Of a stretch of DNA of 38,451 bases, positions 1 through 23,213 are shown piece by piece. Position numbers and translations under genes: made by a program. This stretch comes from Candidatus Aerophobetes bacterium Ae_b3b. GTDB taxonomy: Bacteria; Aerophobota; Aerophobia; Aerophobales; AE-B3A. The stretch's first letter is position 1; the number at the start of each line of letters is the position of its first letter. The stretch spans positions 1 to 38,451 of the forward strand of contig NJBP01000015.1 of NCBI GenBank assembly GCA_005223085.1, written 5' to 3'. The notes below the pieces were generated by a model that had not been told where the DNA came from, did not search any database, and saw nothing but the letters and a program-made list of their open reading frames with translations.

Positions 1-54
1 GTGTTTTGGGTAGAACTGGATGCGGTGAGGAGATGAGGCTAATGTGGCAGGGTC

Positions 55-879
55 TTACCTGCTGGCCAGGTGGGTTAATATTTTTTCATGCTGTGCGCAG
101 AAATCGTTTTTGCTGGTAAGTTGAGCCTGGATGAGGTCTTCCTGCCAGTGGGCATTGTAGAGGCGGCAGTTTTTGTTCTTACAGAAAGGATTGCCGGTGA
201 GATGAAAGAATAAGGCTTGCATCACATATCCTTTCATAACCTCGGTTAAGCGGGGATCATTATAATCAATGAACTTTCCTTTGAACTCCTCTTTTAAAGT
301 GAGGAGACTGGCTCCTAGTTGTTGTTTTAGATAGAAATCCCTGGGTTTGGCTGGTGCCTCAACCACTCCAGTGGTGGAAATGAGAGAAGGAAAACCATAA
401 ACACTCACCCGGGCGTGATAGCGATGATCATCCTCACTCCAGGTGCCAAAAAGCTGATTGGTGAAAACGATGTGGCAATGATCGAGGCTAAGTTCGGCCT
501 CAGGGATTAGCCGGGAAAGGAGAGCCAGGAGTTCTAAGCCATCATACAAGATTCCAAAAGATTTAACTTTCCCGTAAAGAAGTTTTCTTCTTTCATATTC
601 AACTTCCCCTTCAAGAGGCTCAGCAAAACTCTTATTTCTATTTACCTGGCGGACCTTTATGGCAGCAGTTTTTCGAGCTAGCTCATCCGCCGTAGTCTCT
701 TTCTTTTCGCGTGGTACACGAGAAAAGTAGTAGGAGAAAAAATCTTCCCTTAGCTCGATTTTGACCTGCTTGAGCCAGCTTTCAAGATACCCCGCTATTT
801 CCTCAAGATTTAGGCTCTCCGTTCCTGCCCCATGGTAGAGATAAATAAAAGAGGGAAGATGGACCGTGGAGGAGAACAT
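55..879 (-). CDS. Conserved protein of unknown function with C-terminal Cys/His cluster (possibly DUF6775-like)
   Basis: A 274-residue soluble protein without signal peptide or membrane segment. Its start lies 3 bases after the Thi4 stop, so it is very probably co-translated as the last visible gene of the sulfur train. The most telling part is the C-terminus: residues about 233-265 hold C-x4-C, then an HWQ motif, then a C-x2-H pair (FCAQH), a spacing that looks metal-binding. I have a weak memory of an archaeal/anaerobe family annotated as a putative metallopeptidase (DUF6775) with this ending, but there is no HExxH motif and I do not claim protease activity. Placement after thi4 suggests a role with thiazole synthesis or metal/sulfide handling; that is inference from position only. 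The CDS itself is well supported by coupling and length. Confidence 0.7.
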   Translation of the reverse strand: MFSSTVHLPSFIYLYHGAGTESLNLEEIAGYLESWLKQVKIELREDFFSYYFSRVPREKKETTADELARKTAAIKVRQVNRNKSFAEPLEGEVEYERRKLLYGKVKSFGILYDGLELLALLSRLIPEAELSLDHCHIVFTNQLFGTWSEDDHRYHARVSVYGFPSLISTTGVVEAPAKPRDFYLKQQLGASLLTLKEEFKGKFIDYNDPRLTEVMKGYVMQALFFHLTGNPFCKNKNCRLYNAHWQEDLIQAQLTSKNDFCAQHEKILTHLASR

Positions 880-882
880 TTC

Positions 883-1674
883 TCACTCTAACTTACTCAA
901 GACGGTCTCGGCTCCTCTTTTTCCGGAAAGAAGCATTGCTCCAAAAGTAGGACCCATTCGGGGAAGCCCATAGGTGGTAGAGACAGCCATTCCTACTACC
1001 ACCAGGCCCGGATGAGCCTCACCGGTATGCTCGATTATTAAGTCCTCGGACTGTTCCACCCACATGGCTCCAAATCCTGATGTTTTCGCTAGACCCCTTT
1101 CTTCCAATTTTTTTACCACACAGGCATCGTGGCCTGTGGCATCCACTACCATTTTGGTCTCCAGGGCCACCGGGTCAACACAGCTAATCTGACGAGGTAG
1201 GGCCTGTACAGGAGTCCAGTTGACCACTACCCCAGCCACTCGATTGTTCTCTCTTAAAACTACATCATCAAAAATTGTCATATTAGCGAACTTCACCCCG
1301 GCATCACAGGCAGCAGCGATGAGCTTGGAACAGGCATGGGGTCCGTCTGCTACATATAATCCCTGGCTAACTTCATCAAAGGGTACCCCTAGCTCCGAGA
1401 GAATCTCTTGAGCAGGCCCTCTCACCGTTACTTTGTTCATCAAATATCCGCCAAGCCAGAATCCACCTCCGAGGTAATTGTTTCTTTCCACGATAAGCAC
1501 CTTTTTTCCTTCTTTGGCAACCCCGGCTCCCAACATTAGACCACTCGGTCCGCCACCTACGATGAGACAATCACTTTCCACATATTCATGGAACTGTTTA
1601 GTAAACTCATCCACAATAGCCCTGGTTATTTCTGTCTCTCCCACCGGGGCAAAGATCTTTTTTTTCGCCGGCAT
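883..1674 (-). CDS. thi4: Thi4-family thiamine thiazole synthase with an active-site cysteine
   Basis: Makes the adenylated thiazole precursor of thiamine from NAD and glycine, with sulfur from sulfide or from the enzyme's own cysteine. The 263-residue protein has the FAD/NAD-binding start VGGGPSG near residue 40, the ERNNYLGGG segment typical of Thi4, and a late [17 protein letters not shown] block lining the active site. At the position where sulfide-using archaeal enzymes such as that of Methanocaldococcus jannaschii carry His (HVDP), this protein reads SCVDP with Cys165 (codon 1180-1182), as in yeast-type self-sacrificing Thi4. A strong AAAGGAGG precedes the ATG. It follows the NIL-ferredoxin gene by 15 bases. 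Family assignment is secure; whether the cysteine is sacrificed is unknown. Confidence 0.93.
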
Positions 1675-1689
1675 ACATGGCCTCCTTTT

Positions 1690-2097
1690 TTAAAATAAAA
1701 TCTCCACTGCCTTATAAGGACAGGCAGGAATGCATGCTCCACAGACGATGCACCTGTCTTTATCAAGAGATATCTCCATCCTTTCCCGATCGACTACGAT
1801 GGCTTCGGTGGGACAAAGGGGGACACAGACGGTACAGTGGGTGCATCTATCCTCAAGCCATCTTACATCCTTAGCCAGAGGCTGAATAGCAACTCCTATC
1901 TTTTTCAGATAGTTTAATCCTTTATCAAGAGCCTCTTTTTCACCGCTTATCTCCATTATCAGTCGTCCTTCCTCTTCCCGACTGATTCTGGCTCTCAAGA
2001 TATTTACCACCAGATCATAATCTTTTATCAATCGATAGGTGATGGGCTCCTCAACCACGGTTTGAGGGAAAGTCAAGACTAATCTTTTCTTTGGCAT
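1690..2097 (-). CDS. NIL-domain ferredoxin, partner of the DUF39 homocysteine synthase
   Basis: A 135-residue protein of two parts. Residues 1-75 form an NIL domain (ferredoxin-like fold found also in methionine ABC ATPases). Residues 80-135 carry two [4Fe-4S] motifs of the CxxCxxCxxxCP type (CTHCTVCVPLCP and CIVCGACIPACP). In Methanosarcina the equivalent protein acts with the DUF39 enzyme to form homocysteine from aspartate semialdehyde and sulfide, and is thought to supply electrons for the reductive step. Here the DUF39 gene ends 39 bases upstream, which supports the same pairing. AAAGGAG lies at a good distance from the ATG. Function is assigned by family and context. Confidence 0.88.
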   Translation of the reverse strand: MPKKRLVLTFPQTVVEEPITYRLIKDYDLVVNILRARISREEEGRLIMEISGEKEALDKGLNYLKKIGVAIQPLAKDVRWLEDRCTHCTVCVPLCPTEAIVVDRERMEISLDKDRCIVCGACIPACPYKAVEILF

Positions 2098-2136
2098 CTC
2101 GTGACTCCTTTCTTCCCGGGATAACTTTTTCCTCGA

Positions 2137-3342
2137 TTACCTTATTGGCCTTTCCTTAAGGGGTTTAAAGGTCATACCTGACTCTGCTGAAGGAAGAAGC
2201 TCAACCGGCTCAGTTAAGAGAAACTCTCCTTTTTTTATCCAATCCTTAAGTAGGCTGGCAATCTTCCTTGCCTTAGCGTAGCTGGAAAGTGAACCTGTGG
2301 GGACTTCTTTCCCCTGAACGGCGATCTTACCACTTTTAAGCTGGGTGTAGCTTATCTCACCTAAACTACCTGATTTACCTTTAGGATAGGCATCACTGTA
2401 ATCTACTATCTGGGCAAGAATCTCCTCATCCTTAACAGCCGCATATGAAAGTATCTCCTCATTTAAGATAGGGATGGGAACACCAATTCCTACGCTCAAG
2501 GTCACCCCGTACCCTGTCATAGTCGTTCCCTTCAGCCACTCGGGGCTCATTTGTTTTAAATCGCCCAGCACGGCAATAGTACCGGCAGAAGACCGAGGGA
2601 TGCCTTTCTCTGTCCGGGGAGCAGTAGGATTATGCTGGGTACCCTGCCAGACTACGTAGCCCACTCCACCTCCCAGGAAAATTCTTGTTCCCACTCCAAT
2701 AGTTTTATAATAAGGGTCGTTAAGAAGGGGTGAGAGCTGACCTGCACTACAGTAGTTGGCATTGCCCAGATTGGGTTGAAGAATACCCATGTAGGTATAG
2801 ATGACCTTGTGGGAAAGATTCACCGCCACATTGTAATTTTGATAGGCATTCCTGGGATTAAAAAGAACCGCCTCATTGACATCCTTCAAATTAATCCAGG
2901 TCTCAAGACTCCTTCGGGGATAGCAGTCCGTTCCGTAGGCGGTGGCCACCAACTTCACGTCCTTTCCCGCTACCAGATCCTCGATAACGTGCCCACCCCC
3001 GTATCTGAACTCTCCGGGATGGACTCTGTTCCTCGGATCATCATCGGGAAGGGCCGTAGCCCCGAGGTAAATATCGACTGCCGCAAAGCCTGTGTAAACA
3101 GGGACCTCATTGAGATAAGTCTTGCCTCCCCCCAGCTTGATCTTGGGTTTGGAATGTCCAGTATTAAGATAGATACCTGATGAGCACATAGGTCCAAAGG
3201 TAGCGCTGGTTACCACATCTACCTCTTGGGCAGCTTTCTTGATTCCTTTTTCATCCACTAGATCAATGATCTCTTCCGCCGTCACCACTACCGCCTTACC
3301 CTTCTTTATCTTCTCGTTAATTTCAGCTAGTGTCTTGGCCAT
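2137..3342 (-). CDS. DUF39 L-aspartate semialdehyde sulfurtransferase (homocysteine biosynthesis)
   Basis: A 401-residue DUF39 protein. Family members in methanogens and other anaerobes build homocysteine from aspartate semialdehyde using sulfide, bypassing O-acyl-homoserine. Two conserved cysteines fit the expected catalytic pair: Cys53 in GPMCSSG and Cys141 in YGTDCYPRR. Glycine-rich segments (GGGKTYLNE, FLGGGVGYV, GTQHNP) are also typical. There is no separate CBS domain; the partner NIL-ferredoxin is the next gene. GGGAGGG precedes the ATG, and the gene starts 10 bases after the cysK stop. Placing the Cys-forming and Hcy-forming enzymes side by side suggests both draw on the same sulfide pool. 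Confidence 0.9.
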   Translation of the reverse strand: MAKTLAEINEKIKKGKAVVVTAEEIIDLVDEKGIKKAAQEVDVVTSATFGPMCSSGIYLNTGHSKPKIKLGGGKTYLNEVPVYTGFAAVDIYLGATALPDDDPRNRVHPGEFRYGGGHVIEDLVAGKDVKLVATAYGTDCYPRRSLETWINLKDVNEAVLFNPRNAYQNYNVAVNLSHKVIYTYMGILQPNLGNANYCSAGQLSPLLNDPYYKTIGVGTRIFLGGGVGYVVWQGTQHNPTAPRTEKGIPRSSAGTIAVLGDLKQMSPEWLKGTTMTGYGVTLSVGIGVPIPILNEEILSYAAVKDEEILAQIVDYSDAYPKGKSGSLGEISYTQLKSGKIAVQGKEVPTGSLSSYAKARKIASLLKDWIKKGEFLLTEPVELLPSAESGMTFKPLKERPIR

Positions 3343-3352
3343 TTTTCCCTCC

Positions 3353-4279
3353 CTATCCGCTAAATAATTCCGTACTTGAATATCTTTCCCCGGTGTCAGG
3401 TAATATCACCACAATTAATTTTCCTCTGGATTCGGCCCTTTTGGCCACCTTTAATGCGGCAAAGACTGCCGCTCCTGAGGAGACCCCGGCTAAGATACCC
3501 TCTTCCTTAATTAACCTGCGGGTGGTAATAATCGCCTCCTCGCTTTTCACCTTGATAACCTCGTCGACTAATCCTACCTCTAGTACCTCGGGGATGAAGC
3601 CAGCTCCGATTCCTTGAATCTTATGGGATCCTGGTGATTCTCCGGAAAGGACGGCTGACTCAGCCGGCTCTACCGCGACTGCCTTAAGATCAGCCTTTTT
3701 TTTCTTTATTAGCTGGGCCACGCCGGTAAGGGTTCCCCCTGTGCCTACACCACTTATCAGTATATCTATTCTGCCATCGGTGTCCTCCCAGATCTCTTTA
3801 GCCGTGGTTTGGCGATGTATAGCCGGATTAGCCGGATTCTTAAACTGTTGGGGGATGAAGGCCCTGGGGTTGTTGCTGGCCAGCTCTTCTGCCTTTCTCA
3901 CCGCTCCCCTCATTCCTTCTGAACCAGGGGTTAAGATGAGTTCTGCTCCAAAAGCCCTGAGCAAACTTCTTCTCTCAATACTCATAGTGTCGGGCATAGT
4001 GAGGATTAGTTTATAGCCTTTTACAGCAGCCACAAAGGCTAAAGCAATGCCAGTATTGCCACTGGTTGGCTCAATAATGATGGTATCCTCATTGATCAGA
4101 CCTTTCTTCTCCGCTGCTTCAATCATGGAAAGGCCTATTCGGTCCTTCACCGACCCGCAGGGATTAAAAGATTCAAGCTTTCCTACTACTTCTGCTCCCA
4201 GGCCCTTGGAAATCCTGGCTAATCTAACCAGCGGAGTTCTTCCTATCAGTCCGGTAATGTCATCGGCTATCTTTGCCAC
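3353..4279 (-). CDS. cysK: Cysteine synthase (O-acetylserine sulfhydrylase), PLP-dependent
   Basis: Converts O-acetylserine and sulfide to cysteine in the cytoplasm. The 308-residue length is normal for CysK. Visible hallmarks are the PLP lysine Lys45 in GSVKDR, the substrate loop [11 protein letters not shown] (residues about 71-81), the phosphate-binding [10 protein letters not shown], and the end segment [14 protein letters not shown]. There is no extra regulatory domain as in cystathionine beta-synthase. Translation starts at GTG, 8 bases after a GGGGAGG; no ATG nearby fits the fold. The 43-residue zinc-ribbon gene ends 14 bases before it. It supplies cysteine to NifS, BshC and other neighbours. 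A close relative using phosphoserine or homoserine esters cannot be excluded by eye. Confidence 0.93.
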
Positions 4280-4293
4280 TTATCTCGCCTCCC

Positions 4294-4425
4294 CTAATCT
4301 TCCCCCTGATGGTAGCTAACAACATCTGTGCACTTGGGACAGATTTGGAAGCCATCTTCATTAAATATATAGATACACTCTCCACATCTTGAGCACACTT
4401 TAATCTTCCCATCCCCATCTTTCAT
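4294..4425 (-). CDS. Small 43-residue zinc-ribbon/rubredoxin-like protein
   Basis: A short reading frame of 43 codons between nadA and cysK, easily missed. It encodes a CxxCxxC group (Cys11, Cys14, Cys17) and a CxxC group (Cys29, Cys32) separated by 11 residues, a layout expected for one zinc or iron knuckle. A near-ideal AAGGAGG stands just upstream of the ATG. The gene fits exactly into the gap: it starts 19 bases after the nadA stop and ends 14 bases before the cysK start. That spacing and the Cys pattern make it a convincing gene. Function unknown; a redox or metal-carrier role for NadA or CysK is only a guess. Confidence 0.8.
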   Translation of the reverse strand: MKDGDGKIKVCSRCGECIYIFNEDGFQICPKCTDVVSYHQGED

Positions 4426-4444
4426 CGCCTCCTTAGCAGCTTTT

Positions 4445-5371
4445 TTATGTTAATTCCAGCATTCTATCAACAGCCTTTCCTGCCCTATTAGCTATCCTAG
4501 CTGGAACCTTAATTTGATACCGCATCTCTTTTAACGACCAGACAACCTTCTCCAGAGTGATGAGCTTCATATTAGGACAAATAGCCTGTTCAGAGACAGA
4601 GAAAAATTTTTTTTCGGGGTTTTCCTTACGTAGCCGGTGGATGATTCCCAACTCTGTTCCCACGATGATCTCATTGTTTTCGGTAGTTTTAGCATATCGG
4701 CACATTACCCCCGTACTTTGTACTTCATCAGCCAGAGAAATTACCTCCGGTCTACACTCCGCATGGACTATTACCTTGGCCTGAGGATGGTCTTTTCGCA
4801 GCCTCGCAATATCCTGAGGAAGAATTCTAAGGTGAGTGGGACAATAACCAGGCCAGAGAATCATCTCCTTTCCCACCTGACTGGAGACATAATGGCCCAG
4901 GTATTGATCAGGGATGAATAGGACTTTCTTCCTCTGATCAAGTCCCCTCACAATCTTTACCGCATTGGCTGAAGTGCAGCAAATATCAGACTCTGCCTTG
5001 ACTTCAGCGGCAGAATTGACGTAACACACTACATAGGGATAGCCATATTTTTGTTTTTTCTCTTTCAGCTTTTCTACCGTTACCATATTGGCCATAGGGC
5101 ATCCAGCGTTTATATCCGGTAACAAAACGATCTTATCCGGACTGAGAATAGAGGCGGTCTCCGCCATAAATTGAACTCCACAGAAGACAATCACTTCCGC
5201 CCTGGTTTTGGCTGCTTTTCGACTCAAATCTAAAGAATCACCCACAAAATCTGCCATGTCCTGCACCTCACCTAACTGATAGTTATGAGCAAGGATAACG
5301 GCATTTCTCTGTTTCTTTAACTGAATGAGCTTATCCACTAACGCTTGATTTTTATTATTTTTTGTAAGCAT
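4445..5371 (-). CDS. nadA: Quinolinate synthase (NadA)
   Basis: Condenses iminoaspartate with dihydroxyacetone phosphate to quinolinate in NAD synthesis, using a [4Fe-4S] cluster. With the start used here (308 residues) the three cluster ligands are Cys91 (INAGCPM), Cys177 (GYCPTH) and Cys265 (QAICPNM); their spacing of about 86-88 matches known NadA. The motifs AHNYQ near the N-terminus and HAECRPEV are also present. An upstream in-frame ATG at 5440 would add 23 residues and overlap the bshB1 gene by 53 bases; I prefer the ATG at 5371, 16 bases after the bshB1 stop. nadB and nadC are not in the window. Its presence among Fe-S genes fits its demand for a cluster. Confidence 0.93.
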   Translation of the reverse strand: MLTKNNKNQALVDKLIQLKKQRNAVILAHNYQLGEVQDMADFVGDSLDLSRKAAKTRAEVIVFCGVQFMAETASILSPDKIVLLPDINAGCPMANMVTVEKLKEKKQKYGYPYVVCYVNSAAEVKAESDICCTSANAVKIVRGLDQRKKVLFIPDQYLGHYVSSQVGKEMILWPGYCPTHLRILPQDIARLRKDHPQAKVIVHAECRPEVISLADEVQSTGVMCRYAKTTENNEIIVGTELGIIHRLRKENPEKKFFSVSEQAICPNMKLITLEKVVWSLKEMRYQIKVPARIANRAGKAVDRMLELT

Positions 5372-5387
5372 TTTCTCTTTTTTGTTC

Positions 5388-6116
5388 TTATCTATTTTTG
5401 TGAGATTGAACATGAAATAGATCTGAAAGAACCTCGGCATTTAGGGGACCTTCCACCAGGAAAGCCTCGGCATACTTTACATTAATTAAGGAGCCATAGA
5501 ATTGATTTCGCGCTTCTATGTGAAAAAAGTAATCCCTTGCTCCGATAGGTCGAACCTCCATTTTGGCTGCTTTCTGTCCAAACTGAGAACAATATGCTTC
5601 AATAGCCTCCATTTTCTTAGAGTAATATGGAGTAATATCGATGACTATAGTGGGAGAAGAATAATCGTGCAATAAGTAAAAAAGGAAAAGTTGGGGATCA
5701 TGAGGAGGAAAGGGGATATTAAGTTTTTCCAGGCGACAGTAAAGATTTGAATTTCTCACCAACCATCCTGCCATGCGGTGATCATTGTGTCGATCCTCCC
5801 AGTAGGGAGCAAGGACAAAATTTGGTTGAAGTTCTCGGATTATTCCAGAAACCGTAACTCTGTTCTCATGGGTGTCCTCAATTCTAGCATCTCCCAGGTC
5901 TAAAGTTCTCCTCAGATCAGCCCCTAAAATCTTAGCTGCTTTCGATGCCTCCTCGACAATAATTTCAGAAGTTGCCTTAGAATTCATCTCTCCTCGGGTA
6001 AGGTCTATTATTCCTGTTGTCCACCCTAGCTCCTTCATCTTTAAGAGAAAACCACCACAGGCTAGTTCTACATCATCACAGTGTGCCCCAAAGGCTAAGA
6101 TATCTATTTTCTTCAT
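5388..6116 (-). CDS. bshB1: Bacillithiol biosynthesis deacetylase BshB1 (PIG-L/LmbE family)
   Basis: Zinc-dependent deacetylase that turns GlcNAc-malate into GlcN-malate, the second step of bacillithiol synthesis. The 242-residue protein shows the LmbE-family zinc motif as AHCDDVE (residues 12-18; the usual Pro of AHPDD is Cys here), the GIIDLTRGEM block specific to BshB, and the late ED-RHNDHR motif (residues about 110-117). GAGGATCG precedes the ATG. It lies between bshA (80 bases upstream) and nadA. The Pro-to-Cys change next to the first metal ligand is unusual, but the ligands themselves (His, Asp, distal His) are kept. Confidence 0.9.
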   Translation of the reverse strand: MKKIDILAFGAHCDDVELACGGFLLKMKELGWTTGIIDLTRGEMNSKATSEIIVEEASKAAKILGADLRRTLDLGDARIEDTHENRVTVSGIIRELQPNFVLAPYWEDRHNDHRMAGWLVRNSNLYCRLEKLNIPFPPHDPQLFLFYLLHDYSSPTIVIDITPYYSKKMEAIEAYCSQFGQKAAKMEVRPIGARDYFFHIEARNQFYGSLINVKYAEAFLVEGPLNAEVLSDLFHVQSHKNR

Positions 6117-6196
6117 ACGATCCTCGAATACCTTCTGTTTAAATAAGAAATTTTTTTCCCGTTTTTTAAGTACCGCAGGTGAAGCATTCCTATACT

Positions 6197-7285
6197 TTAA
6201 GAAACCAAGGTCTTTTGATATAATGAGACGTATCGGGGAACGACCTTCTCGGTGGCAAATTTTTCTAAAACTCTCATCCTTGCCTCTCTTCCCATTTTTT
6301 TTGCTAAACCCTCATTAGTTAGAATTTTCAGACAGTGTTCTGCCATGGTGTCTAAATCTCCTACTTTGGCTAAATACCCATCCTTTCCATGGCGGATTAC
6401 CTCTGGCAGCCCTCCTACTCTGGTGGCAACCACAGGTACCTCTGAGCTCATAGCCTCCAGGGCAGCAAGGCCAAAGCTTTCCTGCTGTGATGGGAGTAAG
6501 AAAAGGTTAGATTTCCCCAAAATTTTGGAGACGTCACCTACGTTACCCCGAAAGCAGACTTTCTCCTCCAGACCCAGTTTTTCCACCAGTTTTTGAGCTG
6601 GATGCCTGGTTGGTCCCTCTCCAACTAGATAAAGCCGGCAATCTCTTTCTTTAACTATCATACCAAAGATCTGAACAACATCTGCTACCCTTTTAAGAGG
6701 TCTGAAGTTGGAAATGTGGCAGATTATCTTCTCTTTACCTCTGCCTGTTCTTTTGTACTTCTCCGGGTTGACGAAGTTAGGTATAACTGCGATGGGTCTG
6801 GTAATGCTAAATTTTTCCAGAGTTTCTTTTTTCAAAAACTCAGAAACAGCGATTAAACTGTCGGAGTTTTCCATGCTAAACTCGACAATCGACTTATATG
6901 AGGGATTTAGCCCGAGCAAGTATACATCTGTCCCATGGAGAGTGGTGACAATTTTTACTTTACCATGAAGGGCTTTCTTGGCAAGATAGGCAGAAGTAGC
7001 ATGGGGAATTGCGTAATGAACATGAATTATATCCAGGCGATGATGCTCCATGACATCGATTATTTTTGAAGTCAAAGCCAGGGTATAAGGACTATACTCA
7101 AATAAGGGATAGGGAGGGACATCAACTTTATGAAAGATTACTCTGTCATTATGCGCTTGTAATCGGACCGGGCAGGCATAGGAGATAAAATGGACCTCAT
7201 GCTCCTTGGCCAGGCTAAGTCCGAGCTCAGAAGCAAGAACCCCACTTCCTCCAAAAGTTGGGTAGCAAACTATTCCGATCTTCAT
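6197..7285 (-). CDS. bshA: N-acetyl-alpha-D-glucosaminyl L-malate synthase BshA (GT4 glycosyltransferase)
   Basis: Joins GlcNAc from UDP-GlcNAc to L-malate, the first step of bacillithiol synthesis. The protein begins with MKIGIVCYPTFGGSG, the typical BshA N-terminus, followed by VDVPPYPLFEYSPYTLAL, HVHYAIPHA and TTLHGTDV, then a C-terminal GT4 domain with PSQQESFGLAALEAM (nucleotide-sugar binding, residues about 270-285). A longer in-frame version starting at 7330 adds 15 residues with no family likeness; the ATG at 7285 is preceded by AGAGG, though very closely, so the exact start is somewhat uncertain. It lies 87 bases after bshC and before bshB1. Confidence 0.92.
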   Translation of the reverse strand: MKIGIVCYPTFGGSGVLASELGLSLAKEHEVHFISYACPVRLQAHNDRVIFHKVDVPPYPLFEYSPYTLALTSKIIDVMEHHRLDIIHVHYAIPHATSAYLAKKALHGKVKIVTTLHGTDVYLLGLNPSYKSIVEFSMENSDSLIAVSEFLKKETLEKFSITRPIAVIPNFVNPEKYKRTGRGKEKIICHISNFRPLKRVADVVQIFGMIVKERDCRLYLVGEGPTRHPAQKLVEKLGLEEKVCFRGNVGDVSKILGKSNLFLLPSQQESFGLAALEAMSSEVPVVATRVGGLPEVIRHGKDGYLAKVGDLDTMAEHCLKILTNEGLAKKMGREARMRVLEKFATEKVVPRYVSLYQKTLVS

Positions 7286-7372
7286 TTCCTCTTTCGCTTT
7301 TGCAAAATCATTAATCTGGCAATAACACAACTAAACAAGATATGCCTCAAGATCATAGAGCTGAACTTTCTT

Positions 7373-8932
7373 TTAAGACTGGAAACTTATTACTTTATGT
7401 TCGCCATAATCTGCCTTTGAAAAGTCACCGTGTACAACTCTTAAGAAATCTTGGCCAAACTTTATGAGGTATTCCAGTACATTGAGTTTTCTTTCCTGCA
7501 AGTCCTGGAGAGGAAAAATATTATGGGCAGCTTTATTAATCTGACTTTGCATAATGATATTCTGCCTTTTTGATTTTCTGGCGACTTTATCCTCAAGGAT
7601 ATCCATCGCCCTTAATGCCTTCCTCAACGATGCCTGAGATGAATCTCTTAAACCCCTGTCAATTTTTACAGCGGCCTCTTCAACGGGTGAGAAGGCCTCC
7701 AAAATCTTGCTTCTTGCAGATCCGAACAGAGAATCCATCTTTTTTCGAGCTAATTCTTTGGTTAAGAGTTCCGGAAACCTCAGATCCAGGATTTCGAAAT
7801 GATATTTGTTAAGGACTTTTAGAATCTTATTTTCAACTATGGTGGCGCCAAACCGAGGCCAGATTAGAGGCATTTCTATCTCAAATTCTTCATAAATCCT
7901 TTTCAGTTGCGCAAAATAAGCTATTTCAGATGGCCCAGCCATATAAGCGTAGGTGGGAAGGATCCAATCTTGGATGAGGGGTCTGGTGACGACATTAGCG
8001 CTGAAAGCAGAAGGATTTTTCTCTAACCAATCAAGCATCTCTTCTGAGGAGTAAACGTTCTCCCCCACATGAAATTTCCCCCTATAAATCACACTTTTTC
8101 TCTCCACCAAGAAGTTGCAAAAATCACCACGTTTATGAATGCGTGGAGAATATCCTAACTCCTTGAGTTTTACTTCCTCTTGACTTAGAATTTTACTGCA
8201 CCTGGTAGGATTTTCTATTAACTTTTTAAAAACAGGAATCATCAACTTTTTCAAATCTTTTGGTTCAATTAAAATCAGACCGAAATCTCCTAAAAGAGAA
8301 AGCATGAGCTTGGAGAAGACCTGGCCAAGATTTTGTCGTCTTTGGCATATAGATACCAGCTTTTCCAGAATGGAATCTTTAAATTCAGTGTCGGGGGTAA
8401 ATTCTTCTATTTTGGCTATCATCCGATCTATTTTCTCCTTATCAAGTCTTATCTCAGAAGTGCTTTTCTCTCCCTGAACAGGATAGCTGATCTTTCGAGG
8501 GTAATTATTATGCATCAAATAAATGTGATCGACTTCTGAGGGATCATGGTCTTCAGAAGCATTCCAGAAAATAGGCACCAATGGATGTTTCTTGTCCGAG
8601 TTATTGTTAGCTACTATAATAGCGGAAAGAGCCTTGTAAATGGTGTAAAGGGGACCGGTAAAGATTCCCGGCTGTTGCCCGGTAACTACAGTATAAGTAT
8701 TCTCGTCAAGCAGCATCTCGATGTTCTCCATAACCTTCTGAGGGGCCTCGATTTTGCGGTTGTATTCCCTCAAGACTTTCACAACCCCCTCCCTATCTAT
8801 TTCAACCTTTCTAAATTTTCTTTCTCTGAAGTGATAAGGATAAAAATGGGAGACTCTTTCATACCTCTCAAGATAGTCTAAGGTTATACGGCTAGGGGTA
8901 ATCTCAGCCGCGGGTAAACTTTCAATAGTCAT
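7373..8932 (-). CDS. bshC: Bacillithiol biosynthesis cysteine-adding enzyme BshC
   Basis: Putative cysteine ligase that attaches Cys to GlcN-malate to finish bacillithiol. The 519-residue length is close to the usual 530-540. Characteristic segments are TVVTGQQPGIFTGPLYTIYK (residues about 81-100) and VPIFWNASEDHDPSEV (residues about 118-133), followed by a long coiled-coil-like C-terminus with many Lys/Glu (residues 380-460), as in the family. All three bsh genes occur here in the order C, A, B1. The gap to the upstream fdhD gene is 136 bases, the largest within this gene train, so a secondary promoter there is possible; I see no convincing one. Confidence 0.92.
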   Translation of the reverse strand: MTIESLPAAEITPSRITLDYLERYERVSHFYPYHFRERKFRKVEIDREGVVKVLREYNRKIEAPQKVMENIEMLLDENTYTVVTGQQPGIFTGPLYTIYKALSAIIVANNNSDKKHPLVPIFWNASEDHDPSEVDHIYLMHNNYPRKISYPVQGEKSTSEIRLDKEKIDRMIAKIEEFTPDTEFKDSILEKLVSICQRRQNLGQVFSKLMLSLLGDFGLILIEPKDLKKLMIPVFKKLIENPTRCSKILSQEEVKLKELGYSPRIHKRGDFCNFLVERKSVIYRGKFHVGENVYSSEEMLDWLEKNPSAFSANVVTRPLIQDWILPTYAYMAGPSEIAYFAQLKRIYEEFEIEMPLIWPRFGATIVENKILKVLNKYHFEILDLRFPELLTKELARKKMDSLFGSARSKILEAFSPVEEAAVKIDRGLRDSSQASLRKALRAMDILEDKVARKSKRQNIIMQSQINKAAHNIFPLQDLQERKLNVLEYLIKFGQDFLRVVHGDFSKADYGEHKVISFQS

Positions 8933-9068
8933 GCTATCTTCTCTGTTCCGGTAAAATTATTCTTATGATGAGTTTTAAAAAAAATCCTTCATACTAATCA
9001 CCAATCTTGAGTTTTAAGAGATCCTGGGTGAATTGAATTAAAATGGTTCTTTTGTTACCCTCTCCGTT

Positions 9069-9869
9069 TTATTTAATTCTAAAATTATGGGTATAAATAT
9101 TCATCCGTTTACCCCTGGCAAAACCGATTATTGATAATTTCGTCTTTTCAGCCAACCTTACCGCTAAATCTGTAGGTGCAGCTCGGGAGGCAATAATAGG
9201 TATTTTTCGTTTTGCTACCTTGATTACTATTTCTGAGGATATCCTCCCGCTGGTCAAGATGATCTTATTTCTGGTTGATATATTCTTTAAGAAACATTCC
9301 CCGAAAATTTTATCAATGGCGTTGTGGCGACCTATGTCTTCCGCAAATATTTCTATTTCATCCGGACTGCTGAGAGCAGCCGAATGGACGCCACCAGTTT
9401 TTTTGAAGAGAGAAGATTTTGCCTGGAACGCTTTCATCAAATTAATAATTTGCCCATAATTGATTTGAACATCTGAATTTACTGGTCTACAATCTACAAT
9501 GTCTTGAAAATCATAAAAAGAAGGACCTCTTCCGCAGCCCGAACTAATCAATCTTTTTCGAAAGAGGTCTTGAGGAACTTTAAGATCTCCATCTACCTTC
9601 ACGTTAGCATAATACCCATCTTTACCAAGACTTACACCTTTTATGGGAATGTTATTTTTGACCAGGCCCTCCGATAAAAGAAAGCCTACCGCCAAGTATT
9701 CTAATTTATCAGGACTACACAGAAGAGTTACTATTTCCTGGCCATTAACCAAAATTGTAAAGGGAATTTCTTTTATGATCCAATCTTTCTCCACATACAT
9801 CTTGCCAGAACTGAGACGAGTTATGTTCAGAGATTGGGTTTGTGAAATTTTCTCAATTTCTTCTTGCAT
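9069..9869 (-). CDS. fdhD: FdhD sulfurtransferase for molybdenum/tungsten cofactor sulfuration
   Basis: FdhD carries sulfur from a cysteine desulfurase (NifS/IscS type) to the Mo/W-pterin cofactor of formate dehydrogenases and relatives. The 266-residue protein keeps the FdhD core: LSEGLV near residue 65, SSGCGRG at 109-115, KKTGGVHSAAL near 155 and the EDIGRHNAIDKI block near 175. E. coli FdhD has a CxxC pair in the first loop; here only Cys112 remains and the second position is Gly. NifS, the likely sulfur donor, is five genes upstream in the same train. No formate dehydrogenase is in the window; the only pterin enzyme seen is the AOR at 23.5-25.5 kb. Confidence 0.93.
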   Translation of the reverse strand: MQEEIEKISQTQSLNITRLSSGKMYVEKDWIIKEIPFTILVNGQEIVTLLCSPDKLEYLAVGFLLSEGLVKNNIPIKGVSLGKDGYYANVKVDGDLKVPQDLFRKRLISSGCGRGPSFYDFQDIVDCRPVNSDVQINYGQIINLMKAFQAKSSLFKKTGGVHSAALSSPDEIEIFAEDIGRHNAIDKIFGECFLKNISTRNKIILTSGRISSEIVIKVAKRKIPIIASRAAPTDLAVRLAEKTKLSIIGFARGKRMNIYTHNFRIK

Positions 9870-9950
9870 TTTTCTATGCTTCCTCTGTTTCTATCTTATT
9901 ACCAATTCTGACCATTTCACCGTGTATCACTCGAGCAAATATTCTTCTTT

Positions 9951-10697
9951 TTATTGACGCCTGAGCCCGAAACTTTCACTGCACACAGGACAGGACGGAT
10001 TTGGTTTGATCTCTATACATTCTGCTTTATTTTGACGCAAATCATAAGTAAAAAGCTTACCTCTCAAGCTATCTCCGTATCCGGTGATTAATTTTATAAC
10101 CTCATTTGCTTCCAAAATTCCAAAAAGTCCAGCCGTCACTCCAATTATGGGAAATTTTATTTTTTTGGGTGCATTCGGAAATAGACACCTCAGGCAGGCC
10201 GTTTTCCCCGGTACTATAGTGGTGATTTGACCATAGAATCCCTCGACGGCAGCATGTATAAGTGGCTTTCTGCCTTTGACACAGAACTCATTCAACAAAT
10301 ATCTTGTTTCAAAGTTATCAAGGGCGTCTACAACTATATCTACATCATTCAGTAGATCTTCTACGTTTTCCCTGCAAATTCTTTTAGCCCATGTTTTTAT
10401 TTTTATTTGTGAATTTAATTGCTTAAGCTTTTCTTTGGCGGACACAGACTTTGCTTTTTTGTTCAAATCTTCTTCCCCATACAGAATTTGTCTGTTTAGA
10501 TTACTGAGCTTCGGCTTCTGCTCATCAATTAAAAACAAGTATCCGATCCCTGCTGCTGTTAAATATATACTGATAGGCGAGCCCAGTCCCCCTACTCCTA
10601 CGATAGCTACCCTTGCTTTTTTTAGCTTCTCCTGGGCATATTTTCCAAATATCATTATCTGACGATCATATCTTCTTAATTCCTTTTCGTTTAGCAT
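9951..10697 (-). CDS. MoeB/ThiF/HesA-family adenylyltransferase
   Basis: E1-like enzyme that adenylates the C-terminal glycine of a small sulfur-carrier protein. The 248-residue protein has the ATP loop GVGGLGS (residues 34-40), the DEQKPKLSNLNRQ motif with Asp and Arg contacts, and DALDN near residue 124. Two zinc pairs are complete: Cys168/Cys171 (CLRC) and Cys236/Cys239 (CPVC). It starts one base after the stop of the MoaD-like gene, so the two are translationally coupled and almost certainly partners. Whether the pair serves molybdopterin, thiamine or another sulfur pathway cannot be settled from sequence; FdhD next door favours molybdopterin, and the presence of Thi4 argues against a need for ThiF-ThiS. 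Confidence 0.9.
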   Translation of the reverse strand: MLNEKELRRYDRQIMIFGKYAQEKLKKARVAIVGVGGLGSPISIYLTAAGIGYLFLIDEQKPKLSNLNRQILYGEEDLNKKAKSVSAKEKLKQLNSQIKIKTWAKRICRENVEDLLNDVDIVVDALDNFETRYLLNEFCVKGRKPLIHAAVEGFYGQITTIVPGKTACLRCLFPNAPKKIKFPIIGVTAGLFGILEANEVIKLITGYGDSLRGKLFTYDLRQNKAECIEIKPNPSCPVCSESFGLRRQ

Positions 10698-10698
10698 G

Positions 10699-10947
10699 TT
10701 ATCCCCCTGCTATGGGAGGAAATAGGGCTATTTCATCATCATTTTTTAATTGAGTTCGCAAGTTTGCATAGTTCCCGTGGATAAATACCCATACATACTG
10801 GGGTAGCCATTTTTTGAGTTTAGGAAAATCATTAGCTATTTTTTCCAGGGCCTCCTTTACGGTAGCCCCTTGAGGGAGGTTAAGCTCAGTTTTATCCACT
10901 CCGCATAAATTCCCGAAAAAAGTGAAAAATTTGATTTTTACCTTCAT
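10699..10947 (-). CDS. MoaD/ThiS-like ubiquitin-fold sulfur carrier
   Basis: An 82-residue beta-grasp protein ending in ...PPIAGG, the free C-terminal Gly-Gly that is adenylated and thiocarboxylated. The pattern MKVKIKFFTFFGNLCG and LPQGATVKEALE is typical of MoaD rather than ThiS. Its stop is one base before the adenylyltransferase start. In molybdopterin synthase the partner would be MoaE, which is not in this window, so the acceptor reaction is inferred. Confidence 0.88.
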   Translation of the reverse strand: MKVKIKFFTFFGNLCGVDKTELNLPQGATVKEALEKIANDFPKLKKWLPQYVWVFIHGNYANLRTQLKNDDEIALFPPIAGG

Positions 10948-11026
10948 TTAATCAAACCTTCACCCACAGTAGTGGAAAACCCCATTAAAGACTCAGTTTT
11001 TTTGAGATATTGGGAACTAACAAGAG

Positions 11027-11248
11027 TCATACAGCTTCTACTCTTTTTATCTCTGGAACTTCTTTCTTAAGACTTTCTTCGATCCCATCCTTGAGGGTTA
11101 GCGTTGCCATAGGGCATCCAATACAAGCCCCAGTTAGTTTCACTTTGACTATACCATCTTCGGTAACTTCAATTAATTCTACGTCTCCACCGTGAGCTTG
11201 TAAAGAAGGACGAATTTCAGTCAATGCTCGTTCTACTTTTTCACGCAT
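11027..11248 (-). CDS. Nfu-type iron-sulfur cluster scaffold (NifU C-terminal domain)
   Basis: A 73-residue stand-alone NifU C-terminal domain. It contains the essential CxxC pair, Cys42 and Cys45 in GACIGCPMATLTLK, preceded by the family segment RPSLQAHGGDVELI. Such proteins hold or transfer [4Fe-4S] clusters. AGGAGG lies 6 bases ahead of the ATG. It follows nifS by 118 bases. No U-type IscU/NifU N-terminal scaffold, HscA/B or ferredoxin is found in the train, so this may be the only scaffold co-expressed with NifS here. Confidence 0.92.
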   Translation of the reverse strand: MREKVERALTEIRPSLQAHGGDVELIEVTEDGIVKVKLTGACIGCPMATLTLKDGIEESLKKEVPEIKRVEAV

Positions 11249-11366
11249 TTTTTATCCTCCTGCGTAAATGCTCAGTAAACGCCGTGTCACATTGGATTTT
11301 CAGGGTAGCCACACCCTTTATAGTCATCAATGGCTGATTTTCGTAGTTTTTATGCAAATGATGAGA

Positions 11367-12536
11367 TTATTTTTTTCTTCCTGCAAAAAGAGGGGACATT
11401 TCTCTGAGCCTCGTCACAATCTCCACCAAGTTTTCTACGGTATAGTCTATATCTTCTTTTCGGTTGTCCCTGCCCAAGGAAAATCTTATTGACCCCTGAG
11501 CTATCTCTGGAGCAACACCCATGGCCATGAGAACATGCGAAGACTCTAAGCTGCCAGAGGTACAGGCTGACCCGGTAGAGGCTGCGATTCCTTTGAGATC
11601 AAGATTTAAGATTAAGGATTCTCCCTCAATAAACTCAAAAGAGATGTTCAAAGTATTGGGTAGTCTTTGAGTGGGGTGTCCATTCAGTTGACAATGGTTT
11701 ATATTTTCCCGGATCATTTTCTCCAATCTATCCCGAAGATTAGATTCGCGTCGTGATTGCTGCACCATTTCTTTTGGTGCTATCTCGGCTGCTTTTCCTA
11801 GTCCTACTATGCCGGCCACGTTTTCCGTACCTGCGCGACGACGCCTTTCCTGATATCCACCATGAAGTAAGGGGTAAATCCTGGTACCTTTGCGGACATA
11901 TAAAGCTCCCACTCCTTTTGGACCATAGAACTTATGAGCAGATAGGGAAAGAAGGTCTACCTTTAGATCATCAACGTTAACTTTTATCTTTCCTATGGTT
12001 TGCACAGCATCGGTGTGCAGGTAAATTCCGGCTTTTTGGGCAATCTCGCCTATTTCTGAAATAGGCTCAATGGTTCCTACCTCGTTATTTGCATGCATCA
12101 CACTGATAAGAACGGTCTGGCTGGTAATGGCTTCCTCGACCTCTCCAGGGTCGAGCCATCCATGTTCATCCACCGGCAAAAAGGATACCTTGTAGCCTCT
12201 TTTTTCTAAATACTTGAGGGTTGATAGTACTGCGTGATGTTCTATGGAAGATGCTACGATATGTTTTCCTTTCTTTTCCAGGGCAGCAGTTACTCCTTTT
12301 AGAGCAAGGTTATCTGCCTCTGTCCCCCCACTGGTGAAGATTATTTCCTCTGGGCTAGCCCCGATAAGATTAGCCACCGTTTCTCTTGCCTCGTCAGTTG
12401 CCTTCCTTGTCTCTTGGCCAAAAGAATAAATAGTTGAGGGGTTGCCAAACGCCTCTTTATAGTAAGGCAGCATCGCCTCCAAGACCTCTGGATGAAGAGG
12501 AGTGGTGGCATTGTGGTCTAAATATATCCTTTTCAT
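11367..12536 (-). CDS. nifS: Cysteine desulfurase, NifS/IscS class
   Basis: PLP enzyme that frees persulfide sulfur from cysteine for Fe-S clusters, FdhD and other acceptors. The 389-residue protein shows the start YLDHNATTPLHPEV, the PLP lysine in LSAHKFYGPKG (around residue 203) and the persulfide loop TGSACTSGSLESSHV (around residue 320), as in class I desulfurases. It starts 13 bases after the iscR stop. It is the likely sulfur hub for the Nfu protein, the MoaD/MoeB pair and FdhD just downstream. I use nifS because of overall likeness; IscS would be an equally valid name. Confidence 0.95.
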   Translation of the reverse strand: MKRIYLDHNATTPLHPEVLEAMLPYYKEAFGNPSTIYSFGQETRKATDEARETVANLIGASPEEIIFTSGGTEADNLALKGVTAALEKKGKHIVASSIEHHAVLSTLKYLEKRGYKVSFLPVDEHGWLDPGEVEEAITSQTVLISVMHANNEVGTIEPISEIGEIAQKAGIYLHTDAVQTIGKIKVNVDDLKVDLLSLSAHKFYGPKGVGALYVRKGTRIYPLLHGGYQERRRRAGTENVAGIVGLGKAAEIAPKEMVQQSRRESNLRDRLEKMIRENINHCQLNGHPTQRLPNTLNISFEFIEGESLILNLDLKGIAASTGSACTSGSLESSHVLMAMGVAPEIAQGSIRFSLGRDNRKEDIDYTVENLVEIVTRLREMSPLFAGRKK

Positions 12537-12549
12537 TTTAACTGTCCCT

Positions 12550-13014
12550 TCAAATTTGAAACATATATTTGTGTCCTGGCTGAGGAAGTCTGGAGACCCG
12601 TCTTGCCTCTACAAGGAGGTCTTCTAAACTCGTTCCTTTCAGAATTTCCTTTATCTTATCTCCTAATCTTTGCCAGAGGAGTCGGGAGACACAGCTATCC
12701 ACCCGCTCACATTGAGATATTTCATCTTCCTTATCCAGACAAAATACCGGAGCAACCGGGACCTTTAAGGCTTTTATGATATCCATCACAGTAATATCTT
12801 TTGGGGACCTGGCCAGGAGAAATCCTCCTCCCGGTCCTCTTATACTTCTCACCAACTCTGCCCGGCGTAGCTGATTGAAGATCTGTTCCAGGTAATTGAC
12901 AGAGATTCCTTCTCTTTGGGAGATATTTTTGATGGAGACGGGGCCAATGGCTTCATGGATGGCTAAATCAAGCATTGCCCTCACTCCGTATCTTCCTTTG
13001 CTAGATAATCTCAA
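12550..13014 (-). CDS. iscR: IscR-like Rrf2-family transcription regulator
   Basis: A 154-residue Rrf2 protein with an N-terminal winged helix (MRLSSKGRYGVRAMLDLA... through RGPGGGFLLARSP) and three cysteines at 92, 102 and 108, the expected [2Fe-2S] ligand region (E. coli IscR uses Cys92, Cys98, Cys104). It is therefore probably a true Fe-S sensor and not an apo-type Rrf2. The start codon is TTG, preceded by GAGGAG and AAGGA. As first gene of a 15-gene sulfur train with motif-bearing promoters directly upstream, it probably controls its own operon. It could alternatively be a CymR-like cysteine regulator, but CymR lacks the Cys cluster. Confidence 0.9.
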   Translation of the reverse strand: MRLSSKGRYGVRAMLDLAIHEAIGPVSIKNISQREGISVNYLEQIFNQLRRAELVRSIRGPGGGFLLARSPKDITVMDIIKALKVPVAPVFCLDKEDEISQCERVDSCVSRLLWQRLGDKIKEILKGTSLEDLLVEARRVSRLPQPGHKYMFQI

Positions 13015-13049
13015 TCCTTATCTCCTCTTTTCTATTTTCTTACTTTTCA

Positions 13050-13081
13050 ATTATAAATTTATAACAATTTTAGTCAAGTAT
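13050..13081 (-). promoter_or_regulatory. Promoter P2 of the iscR operon with IscR-type half-site
   Basis: Read on the minus strand there is a -35 box TTGACT (13072-13077), a 16-base spacer and a -10 box TATAAT (13050-13055), 36 bases before the iscR start. The -35 is embedded in the 16-mer ATACTTGACTAAAATT (13066-13081). This agrees closely with the first half of the E. coli IscR type-1 consensus (ATA-x-YYGACT followed by A/T-rich bases). The second half is poorly kept. Confidence 0.75.
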
Positions 13082-13093
13082 TAGCTAATTTAC

Positions 13094-13124
13094 ATTATAA
13101 AAAAATATAATTTTTGTCAAGTAT
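13094..13124 (-). promoter_or_regulatory. Promoter P1 of the iscR operon with a second copy of the motif
   Basis: A further upstream -35 box TTGACA (13115-13120), 15-base spacer and -10 box TATAAT (13094-13099). Its -35 lies in ATACTTGACAAAAATT (13109-13124), differing at one base from the P2 copy; the two motifs are 43 bases apart, about four helical turns. The short spacer makes it a weaker promoter on paper unless activated. Confidence 0.65.
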
Positions 13125-21317: not shown

Positions 21318-21593
21318 TTACATGTTTTTAGATTTAGCCAGAATCTCCGCTGTAATTGGCCTGATGGGTGATCGATGGGTAGCGGGAAGAATCTCCTTTA
21401 TTGGCTTCCCGGTCATTTCATGGATTATCTTGACTATCAATGTGTAGCATGTGTGTGATTGACAAAGTCCCATCCCTGCCCTAGTTGCTCTCTTAACCGC
21501 ATCTACATTATCTGCTCCTTCTCTTATCGCCTTTTTAATTTCCTCCTCCGTTACTTCCTCACACCTACAAATAATTAAATCTTTTTTACTCAT
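21318..21593 (-). CDS. BFD-like [2Fe-2S]-binding protein (split dehydrogenase subunit)
   Basis: About 91 residues. Cys9, Cys11, Cys44 and Cys49 (ICRC ... GLCQSHTC) match the [2Fe-2S] site of bacterioferritin-associated-ferredoxin-like domains. In heterotrimeric amine, opine or hydroxyproline dehydrogenases this domain is normally the C-terminal part of the FAD alpha subunit; here it is a separate gene. An in-frame ATG at 21620 would add nine residues, but the ATG at 21593 overlaps the stop of the preceding ferredoxin gene by 8 bases (ATGAGTAA), a coupling arrangement, so I prefer it. Confidence 0.85.
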   Translation of the reverse strand: MSKKDLIICRCEEVTEEEIKKAIREGADNVDAVKRATRAGMGLCQSHTCYTLIVKIIHEMTGKPIKEILPATHRSPIRPITAEILAKSKNM

Positions 21594-22116
21594 TTTTATC
21601 CACTTTTTGTTGAAGTTCAATTCCTCTAACCTGGTTAGAGTATTCCTTAGGTATTACAATAGTAATCACTGAAGTGTGATCATGGCTTTTTGGATCACGG
21701 ACCTTTAATACTTTTGCCTTACAAGCAATCTCCCCTTCTCGGTTCACTGCATTAACCTCATCGCCCTCTTTGGGGAGAGGATAATACTCATAAGGGAAGG
21801 AAACAGTCGCCTCTTTCTCAGAGTAAGTGTTATCCACTAGAAATATAGCTAAGCCAGGACAGATAGGTATACAGAGTCCACAAGCGTTACATTTATCCTG
21901 ATCTATTCGAGGTAAATTAGTAATTGGCTCTCCTACCACAATTGCTCCTCTGGGGCATATCGTCTCACAGGGATCACAGGGAATCTCTTCTGGACATTCT
22001 ATGACAATGACAGGCTTTCTCTTTAACTCCTCTTTAGAAGGATAACCAGGAGAAGCTTCTAATATTTCCCTAGAGATTACCCATGCTCCAGGGGTAGACT
22101 TTAGTCTGTCTTTCAT
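21586..22116 (-). CDS. Two-cluster [4Fe-4S] ferredoxin-domain protein
   Basis: A 176-residue protein with two [4Fe-4S] sites: Cys41, Cys47, Cys50, Cys54 (atypical first spacing, C-x5-C-x2-C-x3-CP) and Cys76, Cys79, Cys82, Cys86 (CNACGLCIPICP). A further 85 residues with beta-rich character follow (residues 90-176) and resemble no domain I recognise. Its ATG overlaps the stop of the FAD oxidoreductase by four bases (ATGA), so it should be made stoichiometrically with it. It probably passes electrons between that FAD subunit and a ferredoxin pool. Confidence 0.85.
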   Translation of the reverse strand: MKDRLKSTPGAWVISREILEASPGYPSKEELKRKPVIVIECPEEIPCDPCETICPRGAIVVGEPITNLPRIDQDKCNACGLCIPICPGLAIFLVDNTYSEKEATVSFPYEYYPLPKEGDEVNAVNREGEIACKAKVLKVRDPKSHDHTSVITIVIPKEYSNQVRGIELQQKVDKNE

Positions 22117-23213
22117 CTATTAACCTCACTTTCGGTAAGTTTCCTTTTGGCTTCTGCTCGCGTATCTCCAAAAGGACCCAATCTGAGGGATTCTAACCTT
22201 TTTCTGGCAAGATTTTTCTTCTCGTCTGCTTCTTCAGAACCCAGATAGCCCAACTCCTCGGCCACAGCTATTCCAGCAAGGCGTCCTTCCTCCATCGCTG
22301 TAGAGGCTTCTTCAATCCCAGCTACATCCCCAGCTACATAAATATCTTTTACGGTACTCCTCATATTTTCATCATGTATAGGTACGTGGTCTCCTAGAAC
22401 AGGGAGGAACATAAATTTACATCCTGCCATCCAGCAAAGCTCGGCAAGAGGTCGAAGTCCCACAGCAATACATATAAGGTCTACAGGCAGAACTCTTTGT
22501 GTCCCTTCCATAACATTACCCTTTTCATCTATTGAAGCTATAACTGCTTCCTCTACTTCATTTTCTCCACGAGCTTCACATATAGTAGCTGAAGTTAGAA
22601 TGGGAACGCCGGTTCTCCTTATTTTGGCGGCATGTACCATATAGCCTCCAATTTTGGGAAGAGCCTCAACAATAGCTGCTACCTTGATGCCTGCAAGAAG
22701 TAGTTGATAGCTGACAATAAGACCAACATTGCCTGAACCCACCATCAGAGCTTTCTGGCCCGGTTGAACTCGATGAACATTCATCATTGTTTGAGCAGCT
22801 CCTGCCCCCATCACTCCCGACAAAGTCCAACCCGGAAAACAGAGAGGATTTTCCGATGCTCCTGTAGCTATTATGGTCTTTTTGGTTTTTATAGTATAAG
22901 TTCTTCCATTATTTTGAATTCCCAACATATTTTTCTCAATTCCCCATACTACTGTATTGAGCATTGTCTTTACACCGAATTCTTCGCATTGAGAAAGCAA
23001 GGAATATCCTATATCATGACCCCTTATACCTGCTTGATGCTCTTTAGAGCCAAAAAATTTATGTATTTGTTTGAAAAGTTGACCTCCTGGCCTCTCATTC
23101 TCATCAAATACAGTTACCTGAACGCCATAGCTCGCTGCCTTAGCGGCAACTGCAAGACCAGCCGGACCTCCTCCCACTACTGCCAACTCTACATTCATAG
23201 TTTCTTTGCCCAT
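22113..23213 (-). CDS. FAD/NAD(P)-binding oxidoreductase, alpha-like subunit of an amine/imino-acid dehydrogenase
   Basis: A 366-residue pyridine-nucleotide-disulfide-type flavoprotein with an N-terminal FAD loop VVGGGPAGLA (residues 12-21), ERPGGQLFKQIHKFFG, a central NAD(P) loop MVGSGNVGL, and a final GDVAGIEEASTAMEEGRLAGIA. This matches the alpha subunit of HcnB/OoxA/LhpE-type complexes, except that the C-terminal [2Fe-2S] BFD domain is missing and encoded two genes later. It overlaps the [2Fe-2S] gamma-like gene by 19 bases. An internal ATG five codons later is another possible start. Confidence 0.88.
   Translation of the reverse strand: MGKETMNVELAVVGGGPAGLAVAAKAASYGVQVTVFDENERPGGQLFKQIHKFFGSKEHQAGIRGHDIGYSLLSQCEEFGVKTMLNTVVWGIEKNMLGIQNNGRTYTIKTKKTIIATGASENPLCFPGWTLSGVMGAGAAQTMMNVHRVQPGQKALMVGSGNVGLIVSYQLLLAGIKVAAIVEALPKIGGYMVHAAKIRRTGVPILTSATICEARGENEVEEAVIASIDEKGNVMEGTQRVLPVDLICIAVGLRPLAELCWMAGCKFMFLPVLGDHVPIHDENMRSTVKDIYVAGDVAGIEEASTAMEEGRLAGIAVAEELGYLGSEEADEKKNLARKRLESLRLGPFGDTRAEAKRKLTESEVNR

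Follow-up and report, generated by a model that had tools for sequence, protein, structure and literature searches.

Do neighbouring genes that together cover nearly all outlets of cysteine sulfur form one unit under one regulator, or have they merely been gathered in one place? The question is raised by contig NJBP01000015.1, which was analysed whole (38,451 bases; below, the window). It belongs to a metagenome-assembled genome (MAG; 2.04 Mb, 89% complete) of Candidatus Aerophobota, a little-known bacterium of deep sediment. Open reading frame (ORF) calling and family searches identified 16 consecutive minus-strand genes at 55-13014. Together they are probably a single functional and regulatory unit, by which an anaerobe makes cysteine and distributes the sulfur among almost all of its users. 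In the order of transcription, the genes are:

12550..13014, minus strand: iscR, regulator of the Rrf2 family whose Fe-S loop has three cysteines (PF02082, 132.3 bits)
11367..12536, minus strand: nifS, cysteine desulfurase (TIGR03402, 593 bits, above cut-off)
11027..11248, minus strand: nfu-type Fe-S carrier, NifU C-terminal domain with CxxC (PF01106, 102.7 bits); not at this place in the sister species
10699..10947, minus strand: moaD/SAMP-like sulfur carrier (TIGR01687, 53.1 bits, above cut-off; SAMP1, 50.8 bits, below cut-off)
9951..10697, minus strand: moeB/ThiF/UbaA-like E1 adenylyltransferase (PF00899, 241.6 bits; PRK08328, 329 bits)
9069..9869, minus strand: fdhD, sulfurtransferase (TIGR00129, 223 bits, above cut-off)
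7373..8932, minus strand: bshC, cysteine-adding enzyme of bacillithiol synthesis (TIGR03998, 438.8 bits); unlinked in the sister species
6197..7330, minus strand: bshA, glycosyltransferase (TIGR03999, 485.7 bits); linked in the sister species
5388..6116, minus strand: bshB1, deacetylase (TIGR04001, 222.5 bits); unlinked in the sister species
4445..5440, minus strand: nadA, quinolinate synthase (NF006878, 432.8 bits); true start probably later
4294..4425, minus strand: 43-residue CxxC...CxxC zinc-ribbon-like protein (ZnR), without a match in a Pfam search; homologues at the same place in the sister species and in one more genome of the family (G007)
3353..4279, minus strand: cysK, cysteine synthase (TIGR01139, 466.9 bits)
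2137..3342, minus strand: DUF39/HcyBio homocysteine-forming protein (PF01837, 518 bits)
1690..2097, minus strand: NIL-domain ferredoxin, partner of DUF39 (PF09383, 60.3 bits, plus Fer4)
883..1674, minus strand: thi4, Cys-type thiazole synthase (Cys165 in SCVDP; TIGR00292, 243.9 bits, above the family cut-off)
55..879, minus strand: DUF6775, annotated as 'probable metallopeptidase' (PF20565, 308.6 bits against a gathering cut-off of 27)

The initial annotation had described sixteen consecutive minus-strand genes, and the number holds if the 43-residue ORF, kept in both relatives, is counted. All genes that it named were found on this strand with strong family matches; the final gene, DUF6775, which is not an obvious sulfur gene, had been overlooked. 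RecO, an initial idea for 55-879, was ruled out by the DUF6775 match. The intergenic gaps are 1-136 bases, and the sole overlap is that of bshB1 and nadA (53 bases). The largest gap, 136 bases before bshC, had been correctly given once the small ORF is counted. The contig terminates at position 1, just beyond DUF6775. The end of another contig of the same MAG (G000:C36; L257 10796-11411) is a 94%-identical second copy of window positions 1-616, due to strain variation or recent duplication. This variant continues beyond DUF6775 with no obvious gene nearby on the same strand, and thus DUF6775 is probably the last gene of the run.

In the proposed scheme CysK would make cysteine, and NifS would draw sulfur from it for Fe-S assembly (Nfu, NadA) and for molybdo/tungstopterin maturation (MoaD/MoeB, FdhD). 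DUF39 and the NIL-ferredoxin would form homocysteine, and the Cys-type Thi4 with its partner DUF6775 would form thiazole. The Bsh enzymes, each scoring above its equivalog cut-off and together a complete set, would form bacillithiol. The IscR-type Rrf2 protein would repress its own promoter via two tandem boxes, and all of the genes would be derepressed when the regulator lost its cluster or cysteine ran low. From the genes, their order and conservation, the promoter and the boxes, all taken from the sequence, we infer the single transcript, the repression and the signal. That one signal sets the partition of sulfur is plausible.

For conservation within the phylum, ten window proteins were used as queries over 17 genomes, and matching contigs were re-annotated. 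In the sister species (G001) the proteins are 83-97% identical over most of the run. One of its contigs contains iscR-nifS-moaD-moeB-fdhD-bshA-nadA-ZnR-cysK-DUF39, and a second one, overlapping the first in gene content, contains cysK-DUF39-NIL-thi4-DUF6775. Altogether 13 of the 16 genes are kept in the same order; the initial annotation would have been refuted by an order conserved in no relative, and this refutation fails. In the same family, cysE-iscR-nifS-cysK-DUF39-NIL was observed in two genomes (G005 and G002) and nadA-ZnR-cysK-DUF39-NIL-moeB-thi4-DUF6775 in a third (G007).

At larger distances, a DUF39 alignment search produced 80 named loci, to which the window proteins were matched (DUF39 strand, within 10 kb). 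The NIL-ferredoxin was found at 70 loci, cysK at 30, thi4 at 26, Rrf2 at 20, nifS at 14 and nadA at 10, and more rarely nfu (7) and fdhD (4). At least five of the families occur in one run at 20 of the 80 loci. Several of the other neighbours are serine acetyltransferase (cysE), COG2122 (PRK04334), iscU and mnmA, and most clusters have cysK or cysE near the regulator. Examples are iscR-cysK-thi4-cysE-DUF39-NIL-COG2122-nifS-fdhD-nadA in Dehalococcoidia (L111), iscR-thi4-cysK-nfu-DUF39-NIL-(unnamed ORF)-nifS-iscU in Omnitrophota (L115), and iscR-iscU-cysE-cysK-rseC-nifS-DUF559-thi4-DUF6775-DUF39-NIL-mnmA in the Clostridia-like genome G223 (L260). Since the order is kept in a second species and other phyla have the set again, the gathering is not due to chance. 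The initial annotation knew of no description of the whole set; it is not entirely without precedent, as cross-phylum versions are present in public genomes. Thus, in anaerobes of several phyla, a single regulator of the Fe-S type stands before genes for almost every outlet of cysteine sulfur, and one signal may set the partition between them.

Two further features of these clusters were observed. DUF559 (6249-6638), which is restriction-endonuclease-like, lies between nifS and thi4 in the otherwise nearly all-sulfur cluster L260. An ATP pyrophosphatase of MnmA/ThiI-like type, whose C-terminus is an NFACT-R_2 domain, is encoded repeatedly within or close to these clusters (L066, G002:C76, 7973-8986; L144, 4298-5287); perhaps it is a tRNA or protein thiolation enzyme.

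The leading regulator had been called IscR-like. It is indeed a three-cysteine Rrf2 protein, with the pattern C-x9-C-x5-C corresponding to three Fe-S ligand cysteines; no fourth ligand was recognised. The three cysteines are kept in every full-length cluster regulator examined. However, its score with the IscR equivalog (142.6 bits) is below the NCBIfam cut-off (207.6), and for this reason it is called here IscR-type and not IscR. With the CymR equivalog it scores 118.5 bits, also below the cut-off (195). The gene is preceded by a strong sigma-70-type promoter (11/12 in a promoter scan) and by two tandem candidate boxes, both of which overlap -35 elements:

13057..13081, minus strand: candidate IscR type-1-like box ATACTTGACTAAAATTGTTATAAAT, overlapping the -35 element of the iscR promoter (TTGACT-16-TATAAT)
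13109..13124, minus strand: tandem repeat of this box (ATACTTGACAAAAATT), placed 43 bases further upstream; sole match with one mismatch in the 2.04 Mb genome

The first box agrees at 20 of 25 positions with the E. coli type-1 consensus (shuffle p=0.003). The 16-base core of the box occurs exactly once in the genome, at the iscR promoter, and in the sister species it is likewise exact once in the genome, upstream of iscR. Similar sites were found at several other clusters; some of them are downstream of the -10 element and palindromic. In a wider search further matches with two mismatches were about as common as those of a reversed-pattern control, and no wider regulon is claimed; one such match adjoins a cobalamin operon. 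An Rfam scan of the window produced no riboswitch or T-box at the gathering threshold and hence no support for a leader controlled by one of the known RNA families.

One possibility is that the regulator senses cysteine rather than Fe-S, directly or via partners of the CysK/CysE type as in CymR-like regulation, and that the cluster is a cysteine-limitation operon. We consider this a serious contender, if on the less probable side. It is consistent with scores for both IscR and CymR that are below both cut-offs, with the proximity of cysK or cysE to the regulator in most clusters, and with an Omnitrophota relative, whose regulator scores higher for CymR than for IscR. On the other hand, the three Fe-S-loop cysteines present in all cluster regulators are absent from CymR of Bacillus, and the boxes resemble type 1 of IscR. 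The Rrf2-iscS-iscU-trmU operon of C. perfringens, the closest case that has been studied, is induced by cysteine limitation (PMC2940859), and hence Fe-S and cysteine are both candidate signals for the window regulator.

Several observations weigh against a single unit. Gaps of 79-136 bases, of which there are five (nifS/nfu, nfu/moaD, moeB/fdhD, fdhD/bshC, bshA/bshB1), could hold internal promoters. A scan for these was uninformative, as the counts of promoters and terminators inside the run equal the shuffled expectation. The overlap with the -35 element inflates the box score, a part of which is due to the promoter since TTGAC is common to both. No large set was found at 60 of the 80 DUF39 loci, some of which are short contigs. 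Gene order is shuffled between phyla; retention of content with shuffled order would be expected from selection on co-regulation and not from inheritance of one block. Finally, the cluster of the sister species lacks nfu, bshC and bshB1.

In the sister species BshC and BshB1 are encoded on a separate contig. Its BshC is 55% identical to that of the window, no closer than BshC of another genus, whereas BshA is 83% identical; this suggests that bshC, and perhaps bshB1, was recently gained or replaced. Outside the window's genus bsh genes were observed beside sulfur genes at none of the 80 DUF39 loci, and 20 other bshC neighbourhoods had no link to sulfur genes except one distant MoeB. The bacillithiol genes, which the initial annotation had included in the set, are thus present here as a lineage-specific insertion outside the conserved set. 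By these comparisons they are an apparent late capture in the window's genus, and the part for cysteine, homocysteine, NifS and Thi4 is the apparent conserved unit.

The long gaps and the unstable place of the bsh genes would agree with a different history, in which several adjacent units (iscR-nifS, nfu, moaD-moeB-fdhD, bsh-nadA, cysK-thi4-DUF6775) were gathered by genome streamlining without common control. We find this rather unlikely, as the same families occur under the same type of regulator in several phyla, fdhD and bshA of the sister species are just a few bases apart, and the box is found at the iscR promoter alone.

The single unit preferred here resembles known systems in part. Like the isc and Rrf2-iscS-iscU-trmU operons (IscR of E. 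coli; cpe1786-1783 of C. perfringens), it starts with a three-cysteine Rrf2-type regulator followed by a cysteine desulfurase, and mnmA/trmU is also found in several relatives of the cluster. Unlike the isc operon (iscS-iscU-iscA-hscBA-fdx), it has just nifS and nfu, without iscU, hscBA and fdx, and it adds genes for cysteine, homocysteine, bacillithiol, pterin, NAD and thiazole. The CymR regulon of Firmicutes also has an Rrf2 regulator tied to cysteine synthesis. However, CymR targets are scattered in the genome, whereas the presumed targets in the window form one gene run. DUF39, the NIL-ferredoxin and COG2122 are required for homocysteine synthesis in Desulfovibrio (PMC5764234). As in Dehalococcoides (DET0921-0919), DUF39 adjoins the NIL-ferredoxin; COG2122 is inside the cluster in Dehalococcoidia, but in the window genome it is encoded elsewhere (261.5 bits, subfamily cut-off 271). 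With it, the genome has every known part of the pathway. COG2122 was also found in seven other Aerophobota genomes searched. The published description covers the homocysteine genes, with no regulator-led super-cluster containing nifS, cysK, thi4, fdhD and nadA (PMC5764234).

The most surprising result was not expected and concerns the last gene of the run. Cys165 of the window Thi4 (SCVDP) aligns with the active-site cysteine of Arabidopsis THI1 (SCMDP, 1rp0), as in the suicide THI4s of Haloferax (HvThi4, PMC4215014), yeast and plants. The characterised sulfide-using Thi4 enzymes lack this cysteine (PMC8454699). Thi4 had been listed among the sulfur outlets and it is present; since it is of the Cys type, the sulfur that it uses may come from a cysteine of its own instead of sulfide. 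In other DUF39 clusters Thi4 is mostly of the non-Cys type (LHVDP).

DUF6775 was searched for in 290 genomes, with 20 matches; one of them, a fragment of 29 residues from a genome that is 59% complete, was left out. All 19 remaining genomes contain a Cys-type Thi4 (residue checked), adjacent to DUF6775 in 18 of them and across 12 families. No genome among the 290 that has just the non-Cys Thi4 contains DUF6775, and in nine genomes (8 families) a Cys-type Thi4 occurs unaccompanied by it. The Fisher test gives p = 6e-12 for the 80 Thi4-bearing genomes and 2.5e-23 for all 290, although genomes are not independent. Three genomes (G002, G007, G008) contain both types of Thi4, and DUF6775 adjoins the Cys type only. 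A further search, in the phyla to which G073 and G223 belong, yielded just two new genomes with DUF6775; both have thi4-DUF6775-DUF39, and this neighbouring thi4 is of the Cys-Thi4 family. In one family thi4 and DUF6775 are convergent, and so co-transcription is not the sole reason for adjacency. A moeB-like E1 gene directly precedes thi4-DUF6775 in four genomes (G007, G008, G052, G197). Judged by its distribution, DUF6775 seems to be a partner dedicated to Cys-Thi4 and not yet described; no mention of it was found in a literature search. A TRASH metal-binding protein has been reported as a neighbour of THI4, but for non-Cys THI4s (PMC8454699).

DUF6775 could also be a mere neighbour of thi4 with an unrelated role, the pair being moved by horizontal transfer. 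The nine genomes with unaccompanied Cys-Thi4 agree with this, as does the lack of DUF6775 in 14 control genomes, a set seemingly including Haloferax volcanii, whose Thi4 has the cysteine (PMC4215014); hence DUF6775 is not needed by every Cys-Thi4. However, such a role is doubtful given Cys-Thi4 in 19 of 19 genomes, adjacency in 18 with one family convergent, and no link to the non-Cys type where both types occur.

The invariant motifs of DUF6775 are C-x4-C-x5-H-x16-C and H-x-R, and the HExxH catalytic motif of zinc metallopeptidases (archaemetzincin-like) is not present. Comparison with archaemetzincin M54 by hhalign gave a weak, local match over the Cys motif (E=0.007, probability 5%). A profile search of PDB sequences produced no match, and an AlphaFold model from five sequences was too poor for a fold search (mean predicted local distance difference test score, pLDDT, 49). 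From the Cys/His motif, the missing HExxH and the weak M54 match, our guess is a metal-binding, probably non-peptidase protein. Candidate activities are metal delivery, and disposal or repair of spent Thi4.

To our knowledge, no repair factor for spent Thi4 has been reported. In yeast and plants there is no reconversion of spent Thi4, and for plants the cost of replacing it has been put at 2-4% of biomass (PMC8454699). In Haloferax, sampylation has been proposed to clear spent Thi4 (PMC4215014). In view of this cost and the lack of a known repair factor, a protein that follows the Cys type only deserves attention as a candidate bacterial partner. A speculative version, to which we give little credence, is that Thi4 would donate its cysteine sulfur and turn into a dehydroalanine protein, and DUF6775, likely a metal-site protein, would service it so that it could be repaired to cysteine or removed. 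Sulfide for repair would come from the surrounding sulfur operon, and the MoaD/SAMP-like carrier and E1-like MoeB, encoded near thi4 in several genomes, would perhaps help. Given such repair, these anaerobes would be able to use a Cys-Thi4 more than once.

Two further genes were observed elsewhere in the window. An aldehyde ferredoxin oxidoreductase of the tungstopterin family (23549-25492) is accompanied by ferredoxins and two FAD oxidoreductases (21586-27378) and is a likely user of pterin sulfur from the moaD, moeB and fdhD genes. A short stand-alone protein at 37515-38222 partially matches the methionine synthase activation domain (PF02965, 29 bits) and may be part of a folate-independent or split methionine synthase.

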